Assembly (NCBI GenBank): GCA_030157755.1
Contig: JAOAUD010000161.1
Coordinates: forward strand, 1-38,342
Direction: 5' to 3'
Origin: Candidatus Nanopelagicales bacterium
GTDB taxonomy: Bacteria; Actinomycetota; Actinomycetes; S36-B12; UBA10799
Length of the DNA: 38,342 nucleotides
The position numbers and the translations under genes are program-made. Below the pieces are notes generated by a model. The model did not search any database and was not told where the DNA came from. It saw only the letters and a list, made by a program, of their open reading frames with translations. Positions 27,134 to 30,000 of the stretch are shown here, piece after piece. Numbering within the stretch: the stretch's first letter is position 1; every line of letters begins with the position of its first letter.

Positions 27134-28816
27134 TCAGCTGCTGGTGGCTCCGACGAGAGCGTCTCGTGCTGCCCGCGAAGCAGTCTGGGCAGCTGGAGTG
27201 TTCCTCCAAGTGGTCCAGCCACCGTCTAGGTTCTTGGCCTTGACCCCGTGTGCGTTCAGCAGTTGTGTGGCCACGTGTGCTCGCTGGCCGACGGCGCAGT
27301 ACACGAGGTAGTCGTAGCCCCGGAGGTCCTCGATTTCAGCGCGAATCTCATCGAGCGGGGCATTAAGTGCACCGGGGATCGAGCCTTCGACGAACTCCTC
27401 TTGAGTTCGCACGTCCAAGAGCTTCCAGCCATCCTTCTGAAGCTGCTCGATCTCAGACCAGTCGGCGGAGTCCGAGAGCCCCGACAACCTGTTCTCGGCG
27501 ATGTAGCCGAGCTGATTGATTGGGTCCTTGGCAGAACCAAAAGGTGGAGCGTAGGCGAGTTCAAGGTCAATAAGATCTGTCGCCGTCAGGCCCGCTCGCA
27601 TCGCCGTCGCGATAACGTCAATCCGCTTGTCGACACCCTCGGCTCCCACGGCTTGTGCGCCAAGAATTGCTCCATCGGCTGGATCCACCAACAACTTGAT
27701 GGCAAAGGTCTGGGCGCCTGGGTAGTAGGCAGCGTGATCATTCGGGTGAGTGTGGATTGCCAGGAAGTCGCGGCCCGCAGCAAGAAGTCGTTTTTCGTTC
27801 CACCCAGTCGCCGCGGCGCTCTTGCCGAAGACCTTGACGATTGCTGTTCCTTGCGATGCGAGCACTTTTCGCGGTATCCCGGCAATGCTGTCAGCGGCTC
27901 GGCGCCCCTGCCGATTCGCGATGTTTGCAAGTGGGGTCAGCGTCGCATTTCCATCAAGCATGTCGATCTTTTCGACTGCGTCTCCGACAGCCCAAATCGC
28001 TGGGTCTTCTGTTCGTTGTTCGTCGTCGACTGCGATTCCCCCGGTTGGCCCAAGCCTCAGTCCCGCATCAGCAGCAAGGCGTCCGTCTGGGCGAACTCCA
28101 ATGGCGAAGACAACAAGATCGGCAGCGATCACTCGACCGTCGTCCAGCGTCGCGGTACCGACTTCAATCTCCGCCACCGAGTGCCCCAGTTCGACTGCCA
28201 CCCCGTGGCGGCGCAATTCGCGTTCCAACGGCTTGGCCATCTCTGGATCTAGCGGTGCGAGGAGTTGGTCCCCGAGCTCCACAAGGGTCACGTCCAGTCC
28301 CGCCTCCTTGAGGTTCTCTGCCGCTTCAAGGCCGATGAACCCCCCACCAACAACCACGACACTTTGCGCCTTGCGCACTTCGCTGACCATTCGGTCGAGA
28401 TCTTCGATGTCCCGAAGAACCAACCCTCGTTCGGCGCCGGGGATCGGCGGAACGATCGGGGCGGCCCCAGGGGAAAGGACTAGCGCGTCGTAGTGGAGTT
28501 CATAGTCGACCCCGGTAGCCAGATCCCTGACCACGAGAGTCCGTTCGTTCCGGTTGATTGCAGTCACCTCGTTGCGAACCCTGACGTCGAGGCGGAACCT
28601 CTCACGCAAGCTCTCGGGAGTCTGCAACAGCAAATCACCGCGATCGGCGATCGTTGCCGACAGGTGGTACGGCAACCCGCAGTTGGCGAAGGAGACGTAC
28701 CCGCTGCGCTCCAACACGATGATTTCCATCGACTCGCTGAGCCGACGTAGGCGGGCCGCTGCGGAGGCCCCACCAGCAACGCCACCAACGATCACAACGG
28801 TTTTGGTATCGGTCAC
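27134..28816 (-). CDS. CoA-disulfide reductase-rhodanese fusion (CoADR-Rhd)
   Basis: This 560-residue protein joins a flavin disulfide reductase to a rhodanese domain. The reductase has FAD-binding GGVAGGASAA at 11-20, the single active cysteine Cys46 in SFANCGLPYH (the CoADR/NADH-oxidase type), NAD-binding VVVGGGFIGLEAAENL, and GDAVE near the FAD ribose site. The rhodanese part (about 450-540) has WKLLDVRTQEEFVEGSIPGA and the catalytic Cys507 in YCAVGQRAH. Such fusions reduce CoA-persulfide or polysulfide with NAD(P)H and act in sulfur stress and persulfide removal. AGGAG 8 nt before the GTG supports the start. It follows the DUF2892 gene by 54 bp, so both probably run from the promoter at 29183-29212. 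Confidence 0.92.
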   Translation of the reverse strand: MTDTKTVVIVGGVAGGASAAARLRRLSESMEIIVLERSGYVSFANCGLPYHLSATIADRGDLLLQTPESLRERFRLDVRVRNEVTAINRNERTLVVRDLATGVDYELHYDALVLSPGAAPIVPPIPGAERGLVLRDIEDLDRMVSEVRKAQSVVVVGGGFIGLEAAENLKEAGLDVTLVELGDQLLAPLDPEMAKPLERELRRHGVAVELGHSVAEIEVGTATLDDGRVIAADLVVFAIGVRPDGRLAADAGLRLGPTGGIAVDDEQRTEDPAIWAVGDAVEKIDMLDGNATLTPLANIANRQGRRAADSIAGIPRKVLASQGTAIVKVFGKSAAATGWNEKRLLAAGRDFLAIHTHPNDHAAYYPGAQTFAIKLLVDPADGAILGAQAVGAEGVDKRIDVIATAMRAGLTATDLIDLELAYAPPFGSAKDPINQLGYIAENRLSGLSDSADWSEIEQLQKDGWKLLDVRTQEEFVEGSIPGALNAPLDEIRAEIEDLRGYDYLVYCAVGQRAHVATQLLNAHGVKAKNLDGGWTTWRNTPAAQTASRAARDALVGATSS

Positions 28817-28870
28817 TGCCAGTTCTCCTGATCGCTTTCGATAATTGTCTTGAGTAGCCCGCGCCGTGCC

Positions 28871-29113
28871 TCAGGCGTGAGCGACTGGTTCGGGTGTGGG
28901 CGCTTCGTCACGTTGGACGGGACAGGTGCTGATTCCGAATAGGCGGTAGAGGGGGCAGAAGCCGACAGCAGCAGTCACCAGCATCACCACGGCCACGACG
29001 AAGAGCACGATGCCGACAACGCTCGCCGGTCCCACAAAGATCGCGACAATCACAGCAACGACTGCGATTCCTACGCGAATCAGTCGGTCAATGGAACTTT
29101 CGTTTGTCTTCAT
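28871..29113 (-). CDS. DUF2892 (YgaP-type) membrane protein
   Basis: This is an 80-residue protein with two hydrophobic helices (VGIAVVAVIVAIFVG and VGIVLFVVAVVMLVTAAVG) and the family end motif GFCPLYRLFGISTCP, with two cysteines in it. DUF2892 is the membrane part of the YgaP rhodanese and often sits next to rhodaneses and CsoR/CstR-family regulators, so a role in sulfur transfer or export at the membrane is likely but inferred. GGAGGAG just upstream of the ATG is a very strong ribosome site. It is the first gene of the operon with the CoADR-rhodanese fusion. Confidence 0.87.
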   Translation of the reverse strand: MKTNESSIDRLIRVGIAVVAVIVAIFVGPASVVGIVLFVVAVVMLVTAAVGFCPLYRLFGISTCPVQRDEAPTPEPVAHA

Positions 29114-29179
29114 GACTTCTCCTCCGTCTTGCGCAACGTTCGCGGATGCACACCTTTGGATGTGCGCCCTGTGTACTAT

Positions 29180-29212
29180 TTGACTATACCCCCCGGGGTA
29201 TATTAGTTTCAA
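29180..29212. promoter_or_regulatory. Divergent promoters sharing one CsoR/CstR-type operator
   Basis: The operator TATACCCCCCGGGGTATA (29185-29202) has perfect 8-bp arms around CC. Rightward, -35 TTGACT (29180-29185) and -10 TAGTTT (29204-29209) are 18 bp apart. Leftward, -35 TTGAAA (29207-29212, minus) and -10 TATAGT (29183-29188, minus) are also 18 bp apart. One bound repressor would block both the DUF2892/CoADR operon and the miniprotein gene at 29249. Confidence 0.82.
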
Positions 29213-29248
29213 CGGTAGTAGGACATCGGTTAGTCGTGGAGGTAAGAG

Positions 29249-29413
29249 ATGTGCAGTCCAGCAACGTGTCGTGAGTGTGGAAAGGCCAGCTACACCGGGT
29301 GCGGTTCCCACGTGGAACAGGTTCTTGGTGGTGTACCCGCAGATCAGCGATGCTCCTGTGACTCGTCGAGCAGCCAGAGTCCTCAGAGTTACGCCACCTG
29401 GTTACCCCGCTGA
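29249..29413 (+). CDS. Cys-rich miniprotein A (54 residues)
   Basis: This is a small conserved-looking protein of unknown function. It begins MCSPATCRECGKASYTGCG and continues with SHVEQVLGGVPADQRCSC, followed by a Ser/Gln-rich tail. It has six cysteines (2, 7, 10, 18, 35, 37) and His21, a pattern suited to binding zinc or another metal, or to carrying persulfide. The same pattern at identical positions occurs in miniprotein B (29766-29930); 24 of the first 39 residues are identical. GGAGG at 29238-29242, 6 nt before the ATG, is an excellent ribosome site. The stop abuts that of the convergent regulator gene. Expression should follow the operator at 29185-29202. I recall similar short proteins, annotated only as hypothetical, from other actinobacteria. 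Confidence 0.82.
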   Translation: MCSPATCRECGKASYTGCGSHVEQVLGGVPADQRCSCDSSSSQSPQSYATWLPR

Positions 29414-29671
29414 CTACGCGAGCGACATGAACAGCTTTTCGAGATCTTCTTGAGTCGTGACGTTTTCGGTGTCTGCCAAACACTGGCGCAGCCCGCTGGC
29501 AATGATCTGGAAGCCAGCGCGATCGACAGCCTTGGATGCCGCTGCAAGTTGCGTCACGATCTCTTTGCAGTCGCGGCCTGACTCAAGCATGCGAATAACG
29601 CCAGCGATCTGACCCTCTGCTCGTCGCAGGCGGCGAACTGCCGCTGCGGTTGCGTCTGGTTCAAGCTCCAT
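29414..29671 (-). CDS. CsoR-superfamily repressor, CstR-like (persulfide-sensing type)
   Basis: This 85-residue all-helical regulator of the CsoR/RcnR/CstR family has the [20 protein letters not shown] opening and Cys35 in [10 protein letters not shown]. The second conserved cysteine is Cys64 in LRQCL, 29 residues later as usual. Copper-sensing CsoR needs a histidine four residues before that second cysteine; here the position is Gly60 and the protein contains no histidine at all. Two cysteines without histidine is the CstR pattern, which senses persulfide or polysulfide. That agrees with the CoADR-rhodanese target gene. AGGAG 6 nt before the ATG supports the start. The gene lies 94 bp after miniprotein B and is probably co-transcribed; a weak private promoter (TTGACT-N17-CATATC) is also possible. 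Confidence 0.88.
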
Positions 29672-29765
29672 GGTGTCTCCTGATCGTGTGCTGCTGCGTG
29701 CCGGAGGTTACTGCGTGGGATATGCGAAACGGCTTGGTCGTAGTCAAGTCGTACGCAAGCGGGGC

Positions 29766-29930
29766 CTACTTCTTCGAACCCCAGCCGAACATCGTGCGCT
29801 TGGCTGGTTTACCTGAATCGCACTTACATCGCTCGCGTGATGGAACTCCCCGCATCACGTCGTTGACGTGTTGCCCGCAGCCCGCGTAGGTCGTATTTCC
29901 GCAAGTTCTGCAGGTGGCTGGTCGGCACAT
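29766..29930 (-). CDS. Cys-rich miniprotein B (54 residues)
   Basis: This is the paralogue of miniprotein A, the same length, on the other strand. It begins MCRPATCRTCGNTTYAGCG, continues QHVNDVMRGVPSRERCKC, and has a basic tail ending MFGWGSKK. Cysteines 2, 7, 10, 18, 35 and 37 and His21 are all kept, while the tails differ (acidic/Ser-rich in A, Lys-rich in B). This selective conservation over an uninterrupted frame shows it is a real protein. GGGAG 8 nt before the ATG is a fair ribosome site. It lies directly downstream of the second CsoR/CstR-type operator and upstream of the regulator gene, so it is likely the first gene of the regulator's operon. Function unknown; metal or persulfide binding is a guess from the cysteines. 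Confidence 0.8.
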   Translation of the reverse strand: MCRPATCRTCGNTTYAGCGQHVNDVMRGVPSRERCKCDSGKPAKRTMFGWGSKK

Positions 29931-29970
29931 GATGTGTTCTCCCGTGGGCTCGTGTGGTTTTGGTTTCCTT

Positions 29971-30000
29971 AGCCTACCTGATACCCCCCGGGGTATCCAA
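29971..30000 (-). promoter_or_regulatory. CstR-type operator and promoter of miniprotein B / regulator operon
   Basis: GATACCCC-CC-GGGGTATC (29980-29997) has perfect 8-bp arms and the same core as the operator at 29185-29202. On the minus strand, -35 TTGGAT (29995-30000) and -10 TAGGCT (29971-29976) are 18 bp apart, with the operator between them. This predicts autoregulation of the regulator gene. Confidence 0.8.

Follow-up and report, generated by a model that had tools for sequence, protein, structure and literature searches.

What do two small, cysteine-rich proteins contribute to a bacterial repressor regulon, and to which signal does that regulon respond? The question is raised by a contig of 38,342 nucleotides (JAOAUD010000161.1, assembly GCA_030157755.1) from a Candidatus Nanopelagicales bacterium, which is referred to below as the window. 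Between positions 27134 and 29930, one block holds the genes for a His-less CsoR-family repressor, a coenzyme A disulfide reductase (CoADR)-like/rhodanese fusion, a YgaP-type transmembrane protein and two miniproteins with six cysteines apiece, mini1 and mini2. The genes listed in an initial annotation (a CsoR-family regulator, a CoADR-rhodanese fusion, a DUF2892 protein and two homologous six-cysteine proteins of 54 residues) were all recovered from open reading frames and Pfam/NCBIfam matches, DUF2892 being PF11127 of the YgaP-like protein. We propose that the block is probably an actinobacterial regulon for sulfane-sulfur (persulfide/polysulfide) stress of the ScCsoR kind, with the miniproteins as dedicated members. 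The link of the miniproteins to sulfur regulons is strongly supported by sequence comparison across genomes. Their role as persulfide carriers, taken alone, is more tentative, with the balance leaning slightly against it.

A Cys-only regulator with the operator of ScCsoR

The regulator belongs to the Trns_repr_metal family (PF02583; 81.8 bits against a cut-off of 22.8). Copper-sensing CsoR proteins carry a Cys-His-Cys pattern with the histidine four residues before the second cysteine. The window regulator departs from this pattern, as Gly60 occupies the place of the histidine. Its Cys35 and Cys64 are 29 residues apart, the arrangement of ScCsoR-type sensors, which have two cysteines at this spacing (Cys37 and Cys66 in ScCsoR) and no copper histidine. 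The operator of such sensors, ATACCN6GGTAT ahead of sulfur-oxidation or persulfide genes, is present as well. ScCsoR (SCO0620) of Streptomyces coelicolor binds this site and is released from it by persulfidation of Cys37 (PMC7533328). The same type of site is also used by a copper CsoR and by RicR (PMC7533328), so that the signal has to be judged from other features: the missing histidine, a separate copper paralogue and the target genes. In the same draft genome (about 84% completeness), the one other PF02583 protein has kept the copper histidine and adjoins a CopZ-like gene. A tree of the regulators from the fetched loci split 25 His-type from 106 non-His proteins without error (support 0.875). 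One distant Cys-only protein in this tree, PDB 7mq1 (Staphylococcus aureus CstR was not included), fell far from both actinobacterial clades. Judged by operator and circuit, the closest described relative is ScCsoR.

The two operators with a common core that had been read from the window are both exact copies of ATACCCCCCGGGGTAT, against 0.11 approximate copies expected by chance per window. Operator 1 is 47 bp from the start codon of mini1 and 72 bp from that of ygaP; operator 2 is 50 bp from the start of mini2, which is the probable first gene of a mini2-csoR operon. The whole draft genome contains four sites of the form ATACCN6GGTAT and none of the reversed control pattern. The third exact operator in this genome precedes a DUF2202 (PF09968) gene by 47 bp (contig C102, L001:737-1516), and DUF2202 is also present in two Cryobacterium miniprotein loci (L080, L212). 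The initial annotation had placed an operator in the spacer of every promoter in the block. This holds for the promoter of ygaP, the sole clean sigma-70 match. The mini2/csoR promoter (TTGGAT-N18-TAGGCT) is weaker and was assigned by eye, and no recognisable sigma-70 match was found for mini1; "every promoter" was therefore too strong.

Miniproteins and sulfur genes in other actinobacteria

Eighty related loci from many actinobacterial genera, with 88 miniproteins, were chosen by similarity, and their neighbouring genes were scanned with home-made profiles built from annotated neighbours. Of the 88 miniproteins, 46 have an exact operator in the 250 bp upstream, usually 16-82 bp from the ATG, compared with 0 of 823 control windows. 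The operator is kept at 23 of the 36 miniproteins whose locus holds no csoR, and these miniproteins therefore look like stand-alone targets regulated in trans. Among the 55 fully flanked loci, csoR is found within 2.5 kb in 33 (1 at 5-7.5 kb), rhodanese, CoADR or persulfide dioxygenase (PDO) genes in 31 (3 at 5-7.5 kb) and TauE in 16 (0 at 5-7.5 kb). Every regulator beside a miniprotein with a readable fingerprint lacks the copper histidine (48/48). A locus was counted as linked when it had an exact operator before the miniprotein, a Cys-only CsoR, or rhodanese, CoADR, PDO or TauE genes within 5 kb. The expected co-occurrence of miniproteins with CsoR/CstR-family or rhodanese genes was borne out, with 75 of the 80 loci linked and 5 without any link.

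Because these loci had been picked by similarity, a second, phylum-wide set of 52 loci was taken from 396 genomes. In this set, 15 of the 52 miniproteins have the exact operator (0/626 in controls), 32 are linked, and all 22 regulators with a readable fingerprint are Cys-only. The family occurs in at least 48 of the 396 sampled actinobacterial species; the true number may be higher, as not every candidate in a genome was scored. It is noted that in seven phylum-wide loci (L246, L252, L256, L261, L262, L268, L270) the operator overlaps the miniprotein start codon (ATACCCnnnnGGGTATG). This arrangement suggests leaderless transcripts, in which the operator would cover the -10 box.

A conserved family with metal-type ligands

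Nine residues are invariant in 135 distinct relatives of the miniproteins: M1, C2, C7, C10, G17, C18, G19, H21 and C35. Position 37 is Cys in 62 of them and Gly in the other 73, of which 72 have His38. Cys37 or His38 thus provides a seventh ligand beside C2, C7, C10, C18, H21 and C35, and a Cys/His exchange of this kind is typical of metal ligands. Ribosome-binding-site-like motifs precede 123 of the 135 genes. Compared with its copy in the sister species, mini2 has 23 synonymous codon changes and 1 non-synonymous change, giving a ratio of non-synonymous to synonymous rates (dN/dS) of 0.006. Two length classes can be distinguished, one of about 38 residues ending in C-x-C and one of 52-60 residues with a conserved GFFxRLFGR-like basic/aromatic tail, and several genomes hold one miniprotein of each class.

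The two miniproteins of the window have no match in Pfam, NCBIfam, PHROG or PDB. A family-wide search of Pfam, NCBIfam, PHROGs, PDB sequences and PDB folds returned nothing significant apart from stray single-member matches; the weak best matches were zinc fingers, below significance. No paper was found in a literature search for the signature peptides of the family, and no miniprotein fused to a sulfur enzyme was seen in the collected loci. In 36 of 40 listed plasmid records no gene is annotated under the miniprotein, which is only indicative because the PLSDB gene table is incomplete. A record labelled 'Bacteriophage sp.' from the human gut (MT835623.1), which is unannotated and could be a host contig, holds a homologue with 67% identity at 19139-19300. 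Two AlphaFold2 runs, with an alignment built without the plasmid-record rows, gave a beta-hairpin with a C7-x2-C10 knuckle, followed by a helix that begins near C18-G-x-H21. The order strand-knuckle-strand-helix may resemble a treble clef, although not confidently.

We consider it most likely that the miniproteins are small folded metal (zinc)-thiolate proteins that accept or relay sulfane sulfur; their zinc-thiolate nature is suggested by the ligand pattern. The seven ligands with their Cys37/His38 exchange, the predicted beta-knuckle-beta-helix order and the zinc fingers among the insignificant matches would also suit a zinc or redox buffer, that is, zinc-thiolate proteins that protect or replace persulfide-attacked zinc sites and carry no sulfur. 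Such a buffer is a serious but somewhat unlikely explanation. The recurrent neighbours are sulfur-transfer enzymes, and no zinc transporter or Zur-type genes turned up among them, although no search was aimed at these. The least certain part of our reading is whether the miniproteins act as sulfane-sulfur carriers, as shields for zinc, or in both ways.

Copper as an alternative signal

The operator was further scanned, as ATACCCN4GGGTAT, in 20 genomes in which a miniprotein lies far from csoR. The scan gave 97 sites, compared with 2 for the reversed pattern, and the genes fronted by them include CoADR, rhodanese, PDO, thioredoxin, TauE, YgaP and miniproteins. Of 18 Cys-only regulators, 17 have a site within 2.5 kb and 11 have one within 1.5 kb. 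For copper-type regulators, a site within 1.5 kb was found in only 1 of 25 loci, where it stands ahead of a DUF302 gene. DUF302 genes recur beside miniproteins, Cys-only csoR and the operator (L206, L224, L036, L052 and others), and DUF302 may be another member of the regulon. In the sister species (G008 contig C53, L146), the operator precedes a gene for a sulfide:quinone reductase (SQR; PDB 3hyv, 2e-76). The persulfide signal suggested in the initial annotation is indirectly supported by this site, by an operator identical to that of ScCsoR, by the His-less regulators beside miniproteins and by the separate copper CsoR.

These results bear on the proposal that the miniproteins are copper metallothionein analogues in a copper-induced CsoR-family regulon, like MymT in the RicR regulon of Mycobacterium tuberculosis. 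The 16-bp site type is common to RicR and a copper CsoR, the metallothionein MymT has been treated together with the RicR copper regulon in the literature, and one miniprotein locus (L021) also contains multicopper oxidase and sulfocyanin-like genes. However, none of the neighbouring regulators keeps the copper histidine, the genome has its own copper CsoR beside a CopZ-like gene, and the operators avoid copper csoR genes while they front SQR, PDO, rhodanese and CoADR. We regard this proposal as improbable, and copper buffering by the miniproteins is disfavoured. A copper regulon was rejected as the main explanation of the block because of the fingerprint of the regulator, the second, copper-type CsoR of the genome and the genes next to the operator.

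A second palindrome ahead of miniproteins

Five miniproteins without a CsoR-type link have a different palindrome, WTGTCCGKACAW, 17-49 bp upstream. Across these five actinobacterial genomes there are 14 distinct sites, which front all five miniproteins, three PDO-like genes of the metallo-beta-lactamase type, rhodaneses, SulP permeases and a YeeE-type sulfur transporter. Since miniproteins also occur with sulfur genes under WTGTCCGKACAW, their sulfur link does not depend on the CsoR argument. Each of the five genomes has a close GntR/HutC (UTRA) orthologue (L299-L303), which lies within about 2-3 kb of a WTGTCCGKACAW site in two genomes and shares a contig with one in another two. This protein is a candidate regulator at WTGTCCGKACAW and is put forward as a lead. 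No paper linking GntR and UTRA to persulfide dioxygenase and rhodanese came up in a literature search.

Mini2 and csoR look co-transcribed, and many loci have a miniprotein gene at a distance of about 0.3 kb from csoR, as would be expected if the miniproteins were partners (co-repressors or anti-repressors) of the CsoR-family regulator. Against this, many miniproteins with their own operator lie far from any csoR, and some are under the different operator. Such a partnership is very improbable, and the role of regulator cofactor that the initial annotation had offered for the miniproteins becomes unlikely for the same reasons. That they are short regulatory or spurious reading frames, of which the translation rather than the product matters, as their short length, intergenic position and missing annotation in most plasmid records might suggest, has an almost negligible probability and is contradicted by conservation at the protein level (nine invariant residues, the low dN/dS of mini2 and the frequent ribosome-binding-site-like motifs).

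Weighing the sulfane-sulfur reading

Several observations weigh against miniproteins dedicated to sulfane-sulfur stress. In the phylum-wide sample, 20 of the 52 miniproteins have no CsoR-type link within 8 kb, five of which have the second operator, and for 15 no link of any kind was found. Mini1 has evolved faster, with a dN/dS of 0.40 relative to the sister species. The AlphaFold2 scores are middling (pLDDT 72 and 70, pTM 0.40 and 0.37 in the two runs), and in a single Foldseek run no match had an E-value under 2.6, so that the metal site is a putative one.

With the sulfane-sulfur reading, the following sequence of events may be proposed. At low sulfane sulfur, the Cys-only repressor would occupy ATACCN6GGTAT in the ygaP-CoADR/rhodanese, mini1 and mini2-csoR promoters. 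By homology to ScCsoR, persulfidation of Cys35, with the help of Cys64, would take the repressor off the DNA and allow expression. The CoADR/rhodanese fusion, judging from its family, would then reduce CoA-persulfide or polysulfide. The miniproteins would bind zinc with part of their ligands (the six invariant ones and the interchangeable Cys37/His38), and their remaining cysteines would take up, pass on or shield sulfane sulfur alongside rhodanese, CoADR and PDO.

A bolder proposal, which we hold to be possible at slightly less than even chances, is that the miniproteins are a new and widespread metal-thiolate family, core to sulfane-sulfur homeostasis in Actinomycetota, controlled by two or more unrelated sulfur regulators (Cys-only CsoR, and probably GntR/HutC at WTGTCCGKACAW in other lineages) and serving to carry or store persulfide in a way not previously described. 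In published descriptions, CstR/ScCsoR-type persulfide regulons contain enzymes and transporters. A small, widely conserved and mostly unannotated family within such regulons would mean that part of the way in which bacteria handle sulfane sulfur has escaped notice. From the family come precise predictions of its inducer, operator and ligands, which makes its function directly testable.

Organisation of the block

The features are collected in Table 1. Mini1 and mini2 share 44% identity, and the positions of their six cysteines match. The fusion protein contains Pyr_redox_2 (1.7e-60) and Rhodanese (5e-18) domains. Its best NCBIfam model is TIGR03385, but the score of 413 bits is under the cut-off of 578.8, and for this reason it is named CoADR-like.

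Table 1. Features of the window, by position, and loci with the second palindrome
Feature	Position	Strand	Basis
CoA-disulfide/persulfide reductase-like flavoprotein with rhodanese domain, 560 aa	27134..28816	-	Pfam Pyr_redox_2, Pyr_redox_dim, Rhodanese
YgaP-like transmembrane protein, 80 aa	28871..29113	-	PF11127, 2.5e-20, 72.8 bits against cut-off 25.3
Sigma-70-like promoter of ygaP/CoADR, TTGAAA-N18-TATAGT	29183..29212	-	10/12 matches; operator 1 in spacer
Operator 1, ATACCCCCCGGGGTAT, between divergent mini1 and ygaP	29186..29201		Exact; fits ATACCN6GGTAT
Miniprotein 1 (mini1), 54 aa, starts MCSPATCRECGKASYTGCGSHVEQVLGGVPADQRCSCDSS	29249..29413	+	Ribosome-binding site GGAGG; family alignment
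CsoR-family repressor without copper His (Cys35, Gly60, Cys64), 85 aa	29414..29671	-	PF02583, 5e-23
Miniprotein 2 (mini2), 54 aa, starts MCRPATCRTCGNTTYAGCGQHVNDVMRGVPSRERCKCDSG	29766..29930	-	50 bp from operator 2; dN/dS 0.006 against the sister species
Operator 2, ATACCCCCCGGGGTAT, ahead of mini2-csoR	29981..29996		Exact
Miniprotein loci with WTGTCCGKACAW: L279, L282, L284, L285, L287			
Other loci with WTGTCCGKACAW: L278, L280, L281, L283, L286, L288-L291			

Comparison with known systems

The CstR-CstA/CstB/SQR system of S. aureus has a CsoR-family repressor that senses persulfide and controls rhodanese and persulfide enzymes, an arrangement that the block probably shares. To our knowledge, no small six-cysteine protein has been described in that system. 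The RicR regulon of M. tuberculosis with MymT combines a CsoR-family repressor, the same operator type and a small cysteine-rich protein. Unlike the window block, it has a copper signal and copper genes, and we know of no miniprotein pattern (C-x4-C-x2-C-x7-CG-x-H) in MymT. The ScCsoR circuit (PMC7533328) has in common with the window a CsoR-family repressor, two cysteines 29 residues apart and the operator ATACCN6GGTAT. ScCsoR controls PDO, rhodanese, TauE and itself (PMC7533328), so that sulfur-enzyme targets are common to both. In contrast to this circuit, the window has CoADR/rhodanese and the YgaP transmembrane protein in place of PDO and TauE, and its two miniproteins are additional to the four genes described for ScCsoR.

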